Shown here: positions 4,501 to 55,301 of the stretch, piece after piece | How positions within the stretch are numbered: the stretch's first letter is position 1 | How the letters are laid out: every line of letters starts with the position of its first letter | Source of the DNA: Liolophura sinensis | Lineage: Eukaryota; Mollusca; Polyplacophora; Chitonida; Chitonidae | DNA: 64,000 nt | Reading direction: 5' to 3' | Assembly: GCF_032854445.1 (NCBI RefSeq) | Contig: NC_088295.1 | Span: 81,324,644 to 81,388,643 of the forward strand | Program-made: the position numbers and the translations under genes | The notes under the pieces: generated by a model | Seen by the model: the letters and a program-made list of their open reading frames with translations, nothing else | Told to the model about the DNA's origin: nothing | Databases searched by the model: none

Positions 4501-6547
4501 TTGTTTGGTAGAAAGCACTTCAAACATGCTGTCATGTGTTTCCAGGATGTGGAGCTCTAAGAGACGATTGGAAGGGAAAGACCTGCCACATGACCCACAA
4601 CTGTTCCTGTGGTTAGAGTTGTAGTGGGCTTCATAGCTGAAACATACATGTACACGATACACTTACTACACGGGGAGAAAGGAGCCATGATAAAGAAAAC
4701 AACAACAATCGCAATTAAAATTATAACCATTTGGAATTAACTGCGTCCTGAGAAATTGTAAGAAACCTGCAAGAAACCAACAATGGTAATAAAGAATTTG
4801 AAACATTTGGAATGAACCGTATCCAAACGATATTTTCAAATGGCTGTTTTCACCTTGCCACAGTTTGTCTACAGGAGCTTCACATATCCCCTGTTGACAT
4901 GGTCATGGCCAACAAAGTCACAGAACATTTACAATGTACATATTTCTGTGTAAGGACCACTAACCGCAGGCAGATTGGTCTCTGCCTGTCATTAGCCTTT
5001 ACGCCTTCTTCCAAACACTATGTTGTTCACAGGTGAAATGACATCAAAAATTATGTCACTGTATGCACATTTCTGGAGATAATCATACCCATTACCGTGT
5101 ATTCACAAACTTGGAAAGTTGTGTTCAAAAGTTTAAGCAGCTAGGGATAGAATAATGAAAAATAAGCTTTTTTCTAATAGAAGATACTTCACCAACTTTC
5201 AACAGTACACTGATAAAAACAAATCAAGCAGAAAGTAATGGCTTTACGACAGTAAATTATTGACTTCCATCTGATAATATCATGAAAGCAACAATTACAC
5301 ATAAAGCAACACGGGGCAATCAAAACCTCAGACAGTTTTTGCCAAAAATTCATATTTGGAAATCAAATCACATTTACCAATCAAATTATTGCCTTTACAG
5401 TAAATATCACTTGTTCATGTCCTATTTATAGTGTTAAAATGATTCTAAAGTTTGAAAAAGTTGCAACCTGCTTTACAAATTTTAGGAACTTTTCTACTGA
5501 TTTTAGACAGTAATATGTACAGTCTTGAAACTGATATACGTGGCAGGTAATTACTTGAGCTATTCTAAAATAAATAGCAAAAAATTTGAATGGATATGAG
5601 GTGACAGATTTTTGCCAAAAAATCTTGTTATAAATACCTTCCTGAAAGAAACAAAAAAAGCTTACCTTAAAATGTTATCAAAAGACTTACTGCAGCGAGC
5701 AATGGAGCAAACAAACTCTGGTAGCCTGTAAATAAAATAACAAATTTTAATTTTTAATAAATTTCAGATATACTTTGAGGACTTTTTGCTTATATTAAAA
5801 TAAATTGGTACTCTGACAAAATGAAAATTCCCTCTTCTTCGTATTCACTTACTGTGGATCACATTATTCATTCTTGTGAATACTATTCACGTGCACTTTT
5901 TCACTTTTTTAAAAAGAAAATAAACTTCATAAAGTGCAATAGTTCAGTAATGTGCTAAATCATATTCATGTGATAGCAGCACTCAACAAACTGTGGTTAC
6001 CAAACATTCCTACTGACACTATTTGAATTTGATGAGTTTATACATGTATGACTAACTGCATCATGTGTCCGTGGTTTCACAAGTACATGTATTTCCCAGA
6101 TGTTTTGTGCAGAACGAAAGTTATTTATTTGATTGGTATTCTATACACTGACAACCTGGCATTACATGAAAGCCTCCTACAAACTAAAGTGGATATGACA
6201 CAACATCCAAAATATTGTAAATGCATGTACATATAATATACCATCAATTCTGCATTACACCCAGCAATGTAGCATCACTGAACAACAGGACCAAATGGGC
6301 AAAGCAGGAAGTTTACCTGGGAGCCAATCTTGTCTTTTCACCTTAACAGTACCAGTCCATTTGATAATCCTCAGACCCACCTGTGACAGAAAAAATCCTC
6401 CTGCTCTGCAAAGGGAATCTGCTTACCGGCCAAACAACACACCAAATCCCCATCCTCAAAAAAAGGATCAGTTGGATGTCTTCTTCTTTTCTGTATCTGC
6501 CAGCTCCAGCTTAAGCCTTTTAACAACTTCTCACGAACAGCACCCAT
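1339..6547 (-). CDS. ZNF511: ZNF511-like C2H2 zinc-finger protein (multi-exon gene)
   Basis: Coding exons on the minus strand are 6547-6427, probably 6369-6342, 5725-5666, 4636-4495, 3863-3736 and 1531-1339. They join in phase to about 223 residues (human ZNF511 is about 250). The N-terminal exon carries PFFEDGD, a hallmark of ZNF511 proteins. Three C2H2 fingers follow: C-x4-C-x12-H-x4-H at about 56-76 (spanning two exons), C-x2-C-x12-H-x4-H at about 83-103, and C-x4-C-x12-H-x4-H at about 120-142. After them comes a basic C-terminal tail with FGQG and Arg/Gly-rich words. The finger block matches human ZNF511 in order, spacing and the words ELHILETHDS and RKDHLVKVH. The protein is presumed nuclear; its molecular role is poorly known. 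The start codon lies 100 bases after the stop of GTF2H5 on the same strand. The identity is firm; the second exon is the weak point. Confidence 0.85.
1883..1992 (-). mobile_element. SINE-A 3' fragment
   Basis: The tail TTTATTTATCTGATTGGTGTTTTAA is followed by the eroded body word GGGAGGAAACCACGCAGAAA. It is a truncated, diverged copy. Confidence 0.6.
3217..3476 (+). mobile_element. SINE-A copy, full length
   Basis: The tRNA-like head contains TGGCTCAGTTAGTTAG (A-box region) and GAGTTCAAGTCC (B-box region), followed by the shared body and the tail ACACCAATCAAATAAA. It faces the minus-strand copy that follows directly. Confidence 0.85.
3481..3611 (-). mobile_element. SINE-A 3' fragment, inverted to its neighbour
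   Basis: It reads tail-first as ATTTATCTGATTGGGGTTTAAT, then GGGAGGAAACTCCGCAGAG. It lies tail-to-tail with the plus-strand copy, only a few bases apart, forming an imperfect inverted repeat of roughly 130 bases per arm. Confidence 0.7.
3736..3863 (-). CDS. ZNF511: ZNF511-like exon, zinc finger 3
   Basis: The acceptor is CAGTGCCTAGTAGAG preceded by CTTTTACAG, and the donor is CACTCAAG|gtaagc. The exon encodes FQCLVEEC followed by the H-x4-H pair in KDHLVKVHHYP. It is 128 bases long, phase 0 in and phase 2 out. Confidence 0.85.
4311..4425 (+). mobile_element. SINE-C-like 3' fragment
   Basis: It begins AAGGCCAGTAGTTTACTC and continues through GGTTTCCTCCATCCATTA to the tail GTGTTAAACACCAATCAATC. 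The same family recurs near 54375. It lies within the intron before the finger-3 exon. Confidence 0.55.
4495..4636 (-). CDS. ZNF511: ZNF511-like exon, finger 1 end and finger 2
   Basis: The acceptor is TGTATGTTTCAG and the donor is CAAAACATG|gtcagt. It encodes YEAHYNSNH (the histidines of finger 1), then CGSC...HILETHD (finger 2). It is 142 bases long, phase 2 in and phase 0 out, ending in the word STKQNM where human ZNF511 has SERQDM. Confidence 0.85.
4637..5665 (-). other. Intron of ZNF511-like gene
   Basis: AT-rich intron between the exon with the cysteines of finger 1 and the exon with its histidines. The plus-strand ORF at 4812-5036 shows no family resemblance. Nothing else is seen. Confidence 0.5.
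5666..5725 (-). CDS. ZNF511: ZNF511-like exon, finger 1 start
   Basis: The acceptor is TTTTATTTACAG and the donor is ATTTTAAG|gtaagc. The 60-base exon encodes LPEFVCSIARCSKSFDNIL, with both cysteines of finger 1. It enters with one base completing a codon and leaves with AG, which joins the C of the next exon as Ser. Confidence 0.85.
6342..6369 (-). CDS. ZNF511: Candidate linking exon of ZNF511-like gene
   Basis: This 28-base segment between GGGTCTGAG and the donor TTAAG|gtgaaa is the only stretch I found here whose phase joins the first coding exon (1 base out) to the finger-1 exon (1 base in). It encodes LSNGLVLL. The acceptor is weak, with a poor pyrimidine tract. A stronger acceptor (TTCTGTCACAG) 13 bases upstream opens a different frame that does not fit. 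Treat this as provisional. Confidence 0.3.
6427..6547 (-). CDS. ZNF511: ZNF511-like first coding exon
   Basis: The ATG at 6547-6545 follows an in-frame TGA nine bases upstream. The exon ends at GGCCG|gtaagc. It encodes 40 residues with a basic run and then HPTDPFFEDGD, the conserved ZNF511 N-terminal signature. Acceptor-like sites with a long pyrimidine tract lie just upstream (exon edges at 6582 or 6577), so a 5' UTR exon probably lies upstream of or inside the GTF2H5 unit. Confidence 0.75.
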
Positions 6548-8987: not shown

Positions 8988-9085
8988 GTTATTTATTTAT
9001 TTGATTGGTGTTTTACGCCGTATTGAAGAATATTTCACTTATGCGACGGCGGCCAGCATTATGGTGGGAGGAAACGGGGCAGAGC
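8988..9085 (-). mobile_element. SINE-A, 3' half, split by transposon
   Basis: The tail and body are read on the minus strand (TTTGATTGGTGTTTTACGCC ... GGGAGGAAACGGGGCAGAGC). It stops at the left end of the transposon. The 5' half resumes at 12627. Confidence 0.85.
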
Positions 9086-9115
9086 TGGGTCATTCTACCA
9101 CAACAGTATATTTTA
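9086..9115 (+). repeat. Left terminal inverted repeat
   Basis: It has 14 perfect bases, then 6 mostly mismatched, then 10 perfect bases against the right end. Confidence 0.85.
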
Positions 9116-9475
9116 TGTCCTAAGGCTCAGACAGCGCTAAACAAGACTATTTTCTTCAATATGAGATTGAAGATTTGCAGGAGTATGAAATACAAGACAA
9201 TAACTGCTAAAATGTACTAGTTTGGCTTTAAAAAAGAGGCAAATAACATGCTTTATGAATTGATTTAGTTTTGTGGTGTTGGTAAAATGGCATGTCCCAC
9301 AGTGAGTTTTGTATTAAAACATTACTTAAAATGTTCTTTTTTTGTGGAATTTCTATCTCCAGCCAAAATCAGTTGTTGCCGTTAGCATTGAATAATATAT
9401 GTAATAAGAAAACTACGTTGAAAATGTATAAATGCATTAAAAACAGCCTGTGAAAATGATGTCCCTTAGTGCTGT

Positions 9476-9893
9476 GTCAACTACGTTACCATGACACTTT
9501 CTGGTGAGCTTAACAAGAGTTACATGCCCTTGATGGCAACCAGATCCCCCGGGGCAAAGGCGGGAAATTGCTGATCTTCAAAGTCAGGTTTGGTAAGTTT
9601 CTATGCATTTTTCGCCAAAAACTGTTGATTAATGGCTCAACCTAAATGATCTGTCACTTAAATATGTCAACTATGTTACCGTGATATTTTGCCAGTCAAA
9701 GGTTTTACCTGAAAAAGTAATTAACAGTCTGATATATCTGATGTAATCAAATGCCTTTCACCTTAAGTAACTTCCATTGTCTGTGTACAGCACGGAGTTG
9801 TTGTTGTTTTTGTGCAGTTCTGTCAACAACGTTACTGTCAACTACGTTACCCTGTACCTGGTAACGTGAGTGACATTTGGTAACGTTGTTGAC
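9476..9893 (+). repeat. Left subterminal motif array (6 copies)
   Basis: Copies of GTCAAC(T/A)A(C/T)GTTACC lie at 9476-9490, 9666-9680, 9822-9836 and 9837-9851 on the plus strand, and at 9860-9874 and 9879-9893 as reverse complements. One copy has two mismatches (GGTAACGTGAGTGAC). Spacing is irregular, which suggests protein-binding sites rather than a tandem satellite. Confidence 0.8.
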
Positions 9894-9939
9894 ATTTTAG
9901 ATTAAAAGCTAAAGCGTAACCTAGTACTATTTATTCTTA

Positions 9940-11268
9940 TCAGAGCAGTGCGTCATAAAAGTCTGTTTTTGTTGCAGAAGAACTTTTCAAGAAGCATATA
10001 CGGCAGGAATATGCCCCTATCTGCTGCAGAAAAACAGTGTCGATATAGACAACGTCGAGATGCAGATCCTGAGCGCAGAAATAACTTCTTACAGAAGGAA
10101 AGACGGAGATGCCGCATGATAACAAAGGAAAGTCAGCATCCAGACTGAATGTTGATCAGTTGACTGACAGGGAGAGGCGAAATAGACGAAAGTACTGGAG
10201 AAAAAAACAACAAACTCATAGGGCAACGCAGAAGTCAGCACGAAATATTATGACCCCTCCATGCAGCCCTGACGATAATGGAAACGGCAGGTATGTGTAG
10301 CTGATTAAGTTGTATTGTCTTCCTGTGAGATAGGCCCAACGTGTGTATTACAAAAGCTGACAAATGGCAGATATGGCAATCCGAAATCAATTCTTGATTT
10401 TGTTACAGTTAGAGTTTTAGTATATATGTGCGCACAAAAGCTAAAGTATTATTTCTCATGGTTGTGTTTCAGAAGAGAAAGTGGACTTAGAAGGCGAAGG
10501 GCTAGGGCTAAACGCTCTAAGGACATGAAAGACTTGACAGAAGCATTACAGCAGGAGAAGAGGCGTGCAGAGCGCTACACAAAGCGATACAACCGTCTTC
10601 TCAATCGCACATCAGACAGCCCTAGAAGTAAAACTCGTCAGTTACTAAGGAACTTTCATGTTGGGAAATCTGTCAGACAAACACTAAATTTCCACTTTGC
10701 CCTAGTCAGCGACCTGAAAGCCAAATACAAGGCGTCGCATCATGAGAGGAGGAAACAAATGGTGGCACGACTTTTGACTGGGAAAATAGTCAAACAGTAT
10801 CGATTCCAGAAATTTGCGGAAGAAACTTTTGGCTTTTCCCAAAGAAGATGGAAACATCTAGTCACTGGCTCCACGTGTAATGCAGACCCTTTTGATTTTA
10901 AGAAACGGAAGATGGCAGCGTGGGCCTCAAAGTTGGCATCACGTGCTCGATCCTTTTACATCCGGGATGACGTATCACGTATAACAGCTGGGAAAAAGGA
11001 GACAAAAACCCGAAATAAGCAGAAAATGCAGAAACGCTTTCTATGCGACAGCTTGAAGGTGCTTCACATGAAATTTCTTTCAGAGAGCCCAAACATGAAG
11101 ATATCATATTCTCTCTTCTGTCGGTTGCGACCGTTTTGGGTAATTATACCGTCCTCAAAGGACAGAGAAACCTGTCTGTGTTAGTAAAGTTGCACAAGTC
11201 GTCTTTGGCCAGAAATAAAGTATGTGTCATCTACAGATTAAATGAAGACTCTCTTTTATTCTCTTCAA
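9940..11268 (+). pseudogene. Decayed transposon ORF, N-terminal part of a multi-copy animal protein family
   Basis: The first exon has MPLSAAEKQCRYRQRRDADP from about 10011, then a basic region. The frame is lost near 10145 (HPD then stop) and resumes in another frame at LNVDQLTDRERRNRRKYW. The donor GGCAG|gtatgt (10291) and acceptor TTGTGTTTCAG (10472) join in phase as NGNGR-RESGL. The second exon (10473-11184) continues with an Arg/Lys-rich region, a coiled-coil-like stretch, DDVSRITAGKKETKTRNK and RLRPFWVIIPSSKDRETCLC, then hits TAG. Remnant coding in another frame (KLHKSSLARNK) runs to about 11268. I recognise the DDVSR...AGKKET and RPFWV...DRETCLC words from a multi-copy family in invertebrates and fish. 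That it is a transposase is an inference from its position between TIRs. The C-terminal half is missing. Confidence 0.7.
10291..10472 (+). other. Intron within the transposon ORF
   Basis: It begins gtatgtg and ends tgtgtttcag after a pyrimidine tract. Removing it rejoins two halves of the same protein family in frame. Confidence 0.65.
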
Positions 11269-11280
11269 ATGAGTAAAACC

Positions 11281-11293
11281 TCAATGCAGAATT
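11281..11293. repeat. Left target-site duplication of SINE-B
   Basis: TCAATGCAGAATT is repeated exactly at 11655-11667. Confidence 0.85.
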
Positions 11294-11654
11294 ACCAACC
11301 CCGATAGCTCAGTTGGTAAGGGCGCTCGCTTCAGGTCCGGGAGATCCAGGATCAAACCTCTGTCAGGTCACACCTAAGACCTTAAAAGAGGTAGTTGCAG
11401 CTTCCTTGCCAAACGCCCGGCATTTAGGGGATAGTGAAACGCCTGGTTGGCCTTACCAGTATAATGGTTCGGATGAGAGGGTTTGTTGGGTGCCTTTGGC
11501 AAGTCATCTCGGTGACACAGCACCTTATAAAAGAGCGGTGGAAATCCGCCCTGCAACAAGGAGGTACATAACATGTGCACACACCCTAATGACTCCTCGT
11601 CGTCATGTGACTGAAATATTGTTGGTACGACTTTAACCCTAAGCATTCATTCAT
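11294..11654 (+). mobile_element. SINE-B, full length, tRNA-derived, flanked by 13-base duplications
   Basis: The head is tRNA-like, with TAGCTCAGTTGG (A-box region, 11305-11316) and GGATCAAACC (B-box region, 11349-11358). A body of about 250 bases follows. The 3' end is GAAATATTGTTGGTACGACT followed by ATTC repeats. Perfect 13-base duplications (TCAATGCAGAATT) flank it at 11281-11293 and 11655-11667. It interrupts the transposon after the decayed ORF. ORFs seen across it on both strands are not genes. Confidence 0.88.
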
Positions 11655-11667
11655 TCAATGCAGAATT
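11655..11667. repeat. Right target-site duplication of SINE-B
   Basis: TCAATGCAGAATT, identical to 11281-11293. Confidence 0.85.
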
Positions 11668-11890
11668 CTGCTATTTTTATATCGTTTCGATGTTAACCGG
11701 TGTTATAATGTTTGGAAGACTCCCACCATGAACAAGATCGCAGTGTCCAAAGTTCCTCTGCTTGAAATATTTTTTGGGCCTGAATCGCAATATACATGTA
11801 TGTGTTGGCGCTGCTCTGCATGTGGCTGTACGTGGAGTTGTACTTTAACAAGGTCCATTGCATATCACGTGTGGTTCATAACTCCACTTT

Positions 11891-11970
11891 CCAGATACAC
11901 TGGTCGCTATCATGTGAGACTCCGTGAAAAATTCTTGTTGTGGTGTAAAACAACAACCAATCAAATCAAT
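11891..11970 (+). mobile_element. Diverged SINE tail inside the transposon
   Basis: CGCTATCATGTGAGACTCCG, then AAAATTCTTGTTGTGGTGTA and CCAATCAAATCAAT, correspond to the last 80 or so bases of the SINE-A/C type tail. The copy is heavily diverged, so it is older than SINE-B. Confidence 0.5.
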
Positions 11971-12046
11971 AACCTGTTGTATGTTGAAATCTCTTGGGTA
12001 AGAAAAACAGATTTTGGTCTCCACACACAGGTACTGTGTTACTTTT

Positions 12047-12437
12047 GTCAACAACGTTACCGGTGTCAACTATGTTACCAGAGCTGTCCACTACGTTACC
12101 ACACATAAAACACTTATTCAATACTAATGCATAAGCGCACATTGAACGCTCTGGTGTCATTTACAGCGGCTCCGTACACTTCTTTGTTTGTATAAACATC
12201 TTTGTCAGAATTGACATTGTATGCCTTCTGAGTGCATTGACTGGGTGCATATATTGTGTTTGGGGTCCTGAATTGGGTATAAATAGTCAAAATATCAAAA
12301 CCATCCAAAATCCCGGTTACATTATCATATGTTATCGTGCTAAGGACACTTAATTATTAACATCATAGGGTATGTAAATATGCATTATCGACGTTTGGCA
12401 TTCTCTCAGGTAGAAGTTTGTCGGTAACGTTGTTGAC
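12047..12437 (+). repeat. Right subterminal motif array (4 copies)
   Basis: Plus-strand copies lie at 12047-12061 (GTCAACAACGTTACC), 12065-12079 (GTCAACTATGTTACC) and 12086-12100 (GTCCACTACGTTACC). One reverse copy is at 12423-12437 (GGTAACGTTGTTGAC). The first three are packed within 54 bases. Confidence 0.8.
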
Positions 12438-12596
12438 AGAGGTTTGATCTCAAGCGGAAGGAAAGTTTGTAAAAAATCACTAGATATGGAGTTTGATGTT
12501 GCACATTGTGGCATATGAACGAGTAAATATATACAAATCAGGGAAATGAAGTTCAATCAGTTCCTTCAGCTAAAAATTATGAACTATTGGCCAGAC

Positions 12597-12626
12597 TAAA
12601 ATATACCCTTACGGTAGAATGACCCA
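12597..12626 (+). repeat. Right terminal inverted repeat
   Basis: TAAAATATAC, six mostly unmatched bases, then GGTAGAATGACCCA: the reverse complement of the left end at about 26 of 30 positions. Confidence 0.85.
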
Positions 12627-12689
12627 GCTGCCGAAGGCAGGAGAGGAAGCCAGAATGAGCTGGACTTGAATTCACATCGACCGCATTGG
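12627..12689 (-). mobile_element. SINE-A, 5' half, split by transposon
   Basis: GAGAGGAAGCCAGAATGAGC and TGGACTTGAATTCACATCGA are the head part of SINE-A on the minus strand. It ends at CCGCATTGG, directly before the right 13-base duplication, so the outermost tRNA-like head was already missing when it inserted. Confidence 0.8.
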
Positions 12690-54990: not shown

Positions 54991-55301
54991 CTATTTGCCG
55001 TTCTGTTGATTCCAGGTGGCGACGTCCACGAAGCCACAGGCCATGTAGTTGACGGAGGCGGCATAGCAGTGGGACTTGATCATGCACATAAACATTATGG
55101 TTACTTCGGTGTTTGTAACTGTGATTTGTGTGTTGACGCGGGTGTTATCAACGTTACCCGTGTTCAGTTTGACGAAGCCATAGGTAACCTCGGGTGGCAT
55201 CAGAAAGTTGTTCCGGAATGTGGCTGATTTGGGCTTATTGAAACAAGTGTCCATGCTATTGCGATCCTGGCAAAAGTCAGTGTTGATTCGACCGGATTCA
55301 C
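54991..55301 (-). CDS. Secreted protein, exon 3
   Basis: The acceptor is ACACTGTTTTTTCAG and the stop is TAG at 54993-54991. It encodes 102 residues after completing Cys29, including the lectin-like domain. Confidence 0.8.

Follow-up and report, generated by a model that had tools for sequence, protein, structure and literature searches.

Whether a protein family that is usually left uncharacterized is the transposase of the DNA element in which it lies is the question raised by one segment of the Liolophura sinensis genome (609 Mb; G000). The segment belongs to a 64-kb stretch of contig NC_088295.1 (G000:C1:81324644-81388643; the window), where a first-pass annotation had read it as a transposon with inverted ends, subterminal motif arrays and an open reading frame (ORF) of that family. 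It is a DNA transposon with terminal inverted repeats (TIRs) and a 4-bp target-site duplication (TSD), and it derives from a longer form by internal deletion: ~1.5 kb, including the putative catalytic part of the gene, has been lost, and exon 1 carries a frameshift. Taken as a whole, the evidence makes it very likely that this copy descends from a cut-and-paste transposon whose full form encodes a probable transposase with three putative catalytic aspartates (DDD), a protein that would bind a spaced array of motifs inside the element ends.

The internally deleted, non-autonomous copy in the window is 3539 bp long (9087–12625, plus strand), its limits being the end of homology to four sister copies. 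It opens with a 13-bp left TIR (GGGTCATTCTACC, 9087–9099, plus strand) and closes with the right TIR GGTAGAATGACCC (12613–12625, minus strand), both identified by reading the sequence and comparing sister copies, and it is flanked by identical AGCT duplications at 9083–9086 and 12626–12629. The inverted repeat had been recognized in the first-pass annotation at a length of 14 bases; the leading T is part of the duplication, and the repeat seemed longer because AGCT is a palindrome. The additional paired bases reported further in (TATATTTTA) are present, the whole repeat (I1) comprising 33 nt, flank included, at 88% complementarity.

The remaining 236 codons of the window copy have 50 matching stretches in the genome. 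For comparison, part of the 50 and 70 matching stretches from two genome searches was retrieved, mainly those that have long open frames or are duplicated. Four loci (L013, L014, L015, and L016) are near-identical to the window copy and form with it family 1 (fam1), within which pairwise DNA identity is 94.6–99.5% (aligned blocks of at least 400 bp) and the similarity ends at the same base on either side. The sister copies are flanked by GTAT, TTAT, CACA, and CCGG/CCGT, respectively; the 4-bp duplication is exact in three of these four, and in four of five with the window copy included. All four near-identical complete copies of the ORF lie between the same TIRs. A genome-wide search with the outer 200 bp of fam1 returned six left and five right ends; the five pairs all enclose this ORF, and one left end, at C4:3168497, is solitary. 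The exact 14-mer TGGGTCATTCTACC has 10 genomic matches (one for a reversed-pattern control), four in fam1 copies and six elsewhere. The near-identical copies and the paired ends thus yielded neither a copy of the ORF outside these TIRs nor an unrelated transposase between them; the six further 14-mer matches and the solitary left end stand outside these two checks.

The window copy is not an intact gene, because its frame stops after CLC and its exon 1 is split. The peptide words DDVSR..AGKKET and RPFWV..DRETCLC, from which a spliced ORF had been proposed, do lie in a single frame (10309–11184), but, with the 3′ part of the gene missing from this copy, a stop follows directly after CLC. Exon 1, which encodes the basic N-terminal part (MPLSAAEKQ...), occupies 10011–10290 (plus strand; 3′ limit set by eye at a GT donor) and is spread over two frames, whereas in L013 it is one open frame. 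Exon 2 survives as 236 codons (10473–11184, plus strand; 5′ limit set by eye behind an AG acceptor) that end in ...RPFWVIIPSSKDRETCLC and a stop, and these residues recur over their full span, at 97–98% identity, at three other loci of the genome. L013 has a 751-amino acid (aa) open frame behind a separate first exon; alignment with it places the junction of the ~1.5-kb deletion, which removed the whole D-D-D region, at 11177–11181, where the aligned blocks overlap by 5 bp (short microhomology). Both TIRs and all ten motif sites described below are still present; the window copy would be mobile only with protein from an intact relative, because the catalytic part is lost.

Relatives at 21–40% protein identity to L013 led to other elements that have TIRs of their own, 4-bp duplications and, mostly, subterminal arrays. 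In fam2, the complete copies L017, L018, and L020 carry the TIR GGGTGGATTTTTC and the duplications ATAT, TTAT, and TTAT, and L019 and L021 are without a left end; this family moved recently, because its five copies (L017–L021) are 98.6–99.6% identical over long blocks. The other families are fam3 (L022, with TIR CACGCA(A/G)ACTC and duplication TTAA; L023, without a right end), fam4 (L024 and L025; TIR CATGAATTCCA, 2790 bp, duplications CTTT and ATAG), fam5 (L009+L035, L030+L036, L042, and L045; TIR GGGT(C/T)ATTCCA, duplications AGCA, GTAT, TAAT, and AAAA), fam7 (L039+L026+L040; TIR GGGTG(G/C)TTATA, duplication ATAT) and fam9 (L041 and L043, with proteins ~38% identical to that of L013; TIR GAGTCATTCTACAGT, duplications AGAA and AGTT/GGTT). 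TIRs range from ~11 to 27 bp and fall into two terminus classes, GGGT/GAGT and CAYG; element lengths are 2.8–7.1 kb, full-length fam1, fam2, fam3, and fam9 elements measuring 4.8–5.1 kb.

The constant-length duplications that the first-pass annotation had put forward as a check are 4 bp throughout the elements with both ends. Where the ends are set by homology breaks or a known TIR, 14 of 16 elements have an exact TSD (fam1 4/5, fam2 3/3, fam4 2/2, fam5 4/4, fam9 1/2), and both misses differ by one base. The duplications of L022 and fam7 are not independent evidence, because their end pairs were picked under the requirement of a 4-bp repeat. Outside the count are the copies with one end (L019, L021, L023, and L027, the last with a right end only), those without convincing ends (the L007 stretch, L044, L046, L028, L029+L047, and L010), and L008, L006 (a portion of L041) and the foreign contig L031. 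This 4-kb contig (JAAEPJ010000558.1), the one match among genome_contigs, is binned as a bacterium (metagenome-assembled genome Cli_8) and is probably host contamination of the bacterial bin; its ends are tentative, because its 12-bp inverted repeat (GGGCAATTCCAT, at 206 and 3741) has no 4-bp duplication. Short exact patterns and single-sequence tblastn recovered no relatives from viral contigs (four queries), plasmids or phages, a result that does not imply their absence there.

Empty sites were recovered for the three insertions examined. That of the window copy exists uninterrupted within a high-copy repeat (best at C9:32401046-32401160, 89% over 116 nt, among 40 scored of 3661 candidates), and that of L013 at C1:12072833-12072942 (80% over 107 nt); L018 lies within a satellite whose adjacent unit corresponds to the joined flanks apart from two extra bases. 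The satellite array around L018 (reverse complement 1–883 and 6035–6341) has a unit of ~65 bp. The left flanks of L023 and L024, members of different families (fam3 and fam4), are the same kind of repeat, each insertion falling after ...CTTT.

The protein family is without a name in Pfam and NCBIfam, and six of its peptide words were not found in the literature searched; it may already be in transposon databases as Sola. In an alignment of ten members, the blocks DF[AS][EK]N, [ST]D(G/S)...Q[YF] and HGKG..D....K are invariant or nearly so. Three aspartates, D408, D491, and D533 in L013 numbering, are D in 9/10, 10/10, and 10/10 of the aligned proteins, and from this conservation they are the candidate DDD catalytic triad of an RNase H-like core; the exception is L029, with N at the first position. 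L029+L047 (G000:C583:6500-14400) holds an 878-aa frame (L029:1414-4050, minus strand) and no recognizable TIRs or array, and is either decayed or put to another use. Among near-identical copies the ratio of nonsynonymous to synonymous substitution rates (dN/dS), calculated from few changes, is 0.36–0.58 in fam1, 0.48 in fam3 and 0.56 in fam4. Copies within the same TIRs, 4-bp duplications and the D-D-D triad support the proposal that the ORF family is the transposase of the window-type element, and the family is very probably the transposase.

The ten internal motif copies reported near both ends are present as a 16-bp motif (TGTCAACWACGTTACC). A scan allowing up to three mismatches places six on the left, at 9475–9490 (the TGTCAACWACGTTACC site), 9665–9680, 9821–9836, and 9836–9851 on the plus strand and 9860–9875 and 9879–9894 on the minus strand, and four on the right, at 12046–12061, 12064–12079, and 12085–12100 (plus) and 12423–12438 (minus). 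First-order Markov shuffles (n = 200) of the element gave a mean of 0.06 sites and a maximum of one; the rest of the window holds one further match, at 55143. The same ten sites occur in all five fam1 copies. Arrays were also sought de novo, as 11-mers (one mismatch allowed, low-complexity words excluded) enriched on both sides of the gene relative to shuffles, and exceeded all shuffles in fam1 (9 sites; shuffle maximum 4), fam2 (10; 5), fam3 (11; 5), fam4 (8; 0), fam5B (6; 4), fam9 (9; 4) and its close relative L043 (11; 5), and L031 (8; 6); in the L007 family the array is on the left only (7; 4). By eye the family motifs are alike (CAACTACGTTACC, CCACTCCGTTACC, CATTTCCGTAAC, AAATGTTCGTTAC, GTGATTCCGTCACG, TGTACGTCCAACAC, TCAGTGGTGTTACC). 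An NCGT core is present in most of them but not in fam9 (GTGTTACC), and is not taken as universal. Because the motifs flank the gene on both sides and in a particular layout, they are the putative binding sites of the transposase.

The distances of these sites from the element ends are conserved among several families, forming what is here called the ruler. With the anchor of each family's motif uncertain by a few bases, the left sites lie at 389+, 579+, 735+, 750+, 774−, and 793− in fam1; at 387, 577, 734, 747, 769−, and 789− in fam2; at 389, 580, 735, 750, 774−, and 794− in fam5A; at 391, 723, 738, 762−, and 782− in fam5B, where the second site is missing; and at 375, 567, 719, 735, 757−, and 777− in fam9. 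Left spacing is thus held within 5–17 bp in three families besides fam1. Measured from the right end, the sites lie at 579+, 561+, 540+, and 202− in fam1, at 587, 568, 549, and 200− in fam5A and at 580, 562, 542, and 204− in fam9; in fam2 the triplet is at 414, 394, and 374 and the last site at 194−. Layouts were matched within 20 bp, with order and orientation kept, and compared with 20,000 random placements. On the left, fam2, fam5, and fam9 each match fam1 at 6/6 sites (0/20,000 in each case), as does the L007 family after sliding (6/6; 0/20,000), and fam3 matches at 4/6 (13/20,000); on the right, fam5 and fam9 match at 4/4 (0/20,000) and fam3 at 2/4 (130/20,000). A TIR of the L007 family, sought also at the place that the ruler predicts, was not found. 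Compared with each other, fam4 and L031 agree at 4/4 right sites (1/20,000) and at 3/4 left sites, the latter not convincing (1436/20,000).

The families that share the ruler have proteins 34–40% identical to that of fam1, and the spacers between matched sites show no clear alignment in 18 comparisons among four families (z-scores −0.5 to 2.1, 60 mononucleotide shuffles each), whereas spacer lengths are kept at 168–170 and 130–135 bp. We still think that the spacing itself is under selection, given that lengths persist in nearly saturated sequence. Shared ancestry alone, with too little time for insertions and deletions to shift the arrays, would be the rival account: the arrays are probably homologous, given the resemblance of their motifs between families, and faint residual similarity of the spacers is possible, since 15 of the 18 z-scores are positive (mean 0.8) and, in a relaxed blastn search, the site clusters of fam1 and fam5A align over 76 nt at 63% identity (E 0.029). 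We consider this account unlikely, as no single comparison exceeds z 2.1 in spite of the constant lengths and the divergence of the proteins, and neutral spacers at such divergence would be expected to have changed length. We read the ruler instead as a fixed scaffold on which the transposase would assemble, with nucleosomes possibly setting the distances. The nucleosome reading stems from the gaps, since the outer sites are ~190 bp apart, near the nucleosome repeat, and the next gap, which leads to the inner cluster, measures ~147–157 bp, near the length of the nucleosome core, this range having been picked after inspection of the data. A ruler set by chromatin, with sites in linker DNA beside positioned nucleosomes and transposase assembling across a folded nucleosomal end, is a tentative and rather doubtful idea; such a ruler would be an old rule of the superfamily, perhaps shared across phyla (L031).

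In the mechanism favored here, the full-length form, of ~5 kb, has at least two exons that encode a probable DDD transposase. The basic N-terminal region of this protein probably binds the ten 16-bp motif copies at fixed distances inside the ends, in the layout of six left sites (+ + + + − −) and four right sites (+ + + −); several transposase molecules would then assemble along the left and right arrays and pair both ends, after which the DDD core would cut at the GGG...CCC termini and insert the element with a 4-bp stagger.

A number of results weigh against this mechanism. For the protein, Pfam gave nothing at E ≤ 0.001 for 10/10 members (best 0.0066, one member), NCBIfam nothing near its cut-off for 6/6 members (best E 0.013), and sequence searches of PDB nothing below E 0.09; a single-sequence AlphaFold2 prediction of the L031 core (292 residues) had a mean predicted local distance difference test (pLDDT) score of 35.6, too low to be informative about the fold, a crude propensity profile placed strands before D1 and D2 and no clear helix at D3, and dN/dS in fam2, fam5, and fam9 was 0.67–1.42, again from few changes. 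For the arrays, the de novo test detected none in fam5A (where sites became visible once the fam5 motif was applied), L044, L046, L028, and L029+L047, and a weak one in fam7 (6 sites vs. a shuffle maximum of 5); in an earlier version (10-mers, no complexity filter), fam2 (10 vs. 10) and L031 (8 vs. 9) could not be told from shuffles. For the ruler, fam4 matches fam1 at 2/6 left sites (1279/20,000, not significant) and 0/4 right sites, fam2 at 1/4 right sites (6642/20,000), and the left side of fam7 departs from it. If the protein were instead a passenger gene on a transposon moved by an unrelated transposase, and the array a promoter or regulatory region, the lack of any sequence match between the family and a modelled transposase would be explained, as would the position of the arrays, which adjoin the gene as well as the ends. 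This is very improbable: the only frame of at least 200 aa listed in fam1, fam2, fam3, fam4, fam5, and fam7 (fam5 and fam7 partly covered) is this ORF, and the arrays flank the gene on both sides, at fixed distances to the ends.

The elements most likely belong to Sola or to a close unnamed sister, and Sola itself is favored with moderate confidence, on the basis of published descriptions. In the excerpts of the literature used here and below, Sola elements have a DDD transposase, 4-bp TSDs, lengths of 2–9 kb and TIRs of 11–1124 bp (PMC10741241), and Sola2 has AT-rich 4-bp TSDs, TIRs of 12–21 bp and an 888-aa transposase (PMC3627910). The elements of L. sinensis have 4-bp TSDs, a conserved and presumably catalytic D-D-D, TIRs of at least 11 bp and sizes in the range of 2–9 kb. 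An unnamed superfamily that is distinct from Sola and shares its 4-bp duplication is a credible if lesser possibility, since 4-bp duplications arise in other superfamilies as well (Kolobok, TTAA; PMC9587614), two terminus classes are present, and the likeness to Sola is one of descriptions, not sequences; on the other side, DDD, 4-bp TSD, 2–9 kb and short, variable TIRs together make up the published Sola description (PMC10741241), and bivalve Sola1 elements average 5445 bp (PMC10294476), near the full-length elements here. TTAA is the duplication in one of 18 elements with both ends, unlike the TTAA-specific TSD of piggyBac and Kolobok; the 4-bp length differs from the 8-bp TSD of hAT and P, and from the TA dinucleotide of Tc1/mariner (PMC10741241). 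Within a known kind of system, the window element stands as a well-supported variant; the ruler is the one feature for which no description was found.

Asymmetric sets of transposase sites, spaced at one end and packed at the other, also occur at the ends of Tn7, which differs in being bacterial and multi-protein and in its 5-bp TSD. Hermes and other hAT elements are alike in their unequal ends and in the multiple short subterminal repeats to which an N-terminal domain binds, and differ in an 8-bp target, a BED zinc finger and ends of ~450 bp (PMC10368747); the elements here have a 4-bp TSD, no BED match at E ≤ 0.1 and sites ~200 to 800 bp inside the ends. The P element likewise has internal transposase-binding sites whose spacing differs between the ends, as well as internally deleted copies, and differs in its 8-bp TSD, 31-bp TIR, 10-bp site near each end and THAP domain (PMC7776569); Pfam gave no THAP match to the present family at E ≤ 0.1. 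A subterminal array of fixed spacing, present in these elements, is not mentioned in the excerpted Sola descriptions, and none of Sola type was found described in the literature as covered by titles, abstract beginnings and word counts.

Two further features accompany these elements. In the window copy, the 3′ non-coding part contains a tRNA-like insert of short interspersed element (SINE) type (11298–11660, plus strand; limits and identity by eye; matching frame in L013), in which ARAGORN scored no tRNA; fam1 copies carry tRNA-like SINE-type sequence internally, and similar sequence (blocks ~80%) flanks L016 on the left. Elsewhere in the genome, matches recur at steps of ~34–70 kb (C4:11767582-11874445, C1:47691051-47869213, and C12:14544611-14631125), which suggests large tandem duplications.

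Because neither Pfam nor NCBIfam has a model for the protein family, its copies can readily pass for ordinary genes in annotation; their position between TIRs with a constant 4-bp duplication would give the family both a function and a test. The ruler is the more surprising part, and predicts which sites and spacings the transposase would need. If it is true that the spacing follows nucleosomes, these elements would have ends adapted to chromatin, which would be unusual for a transposon.

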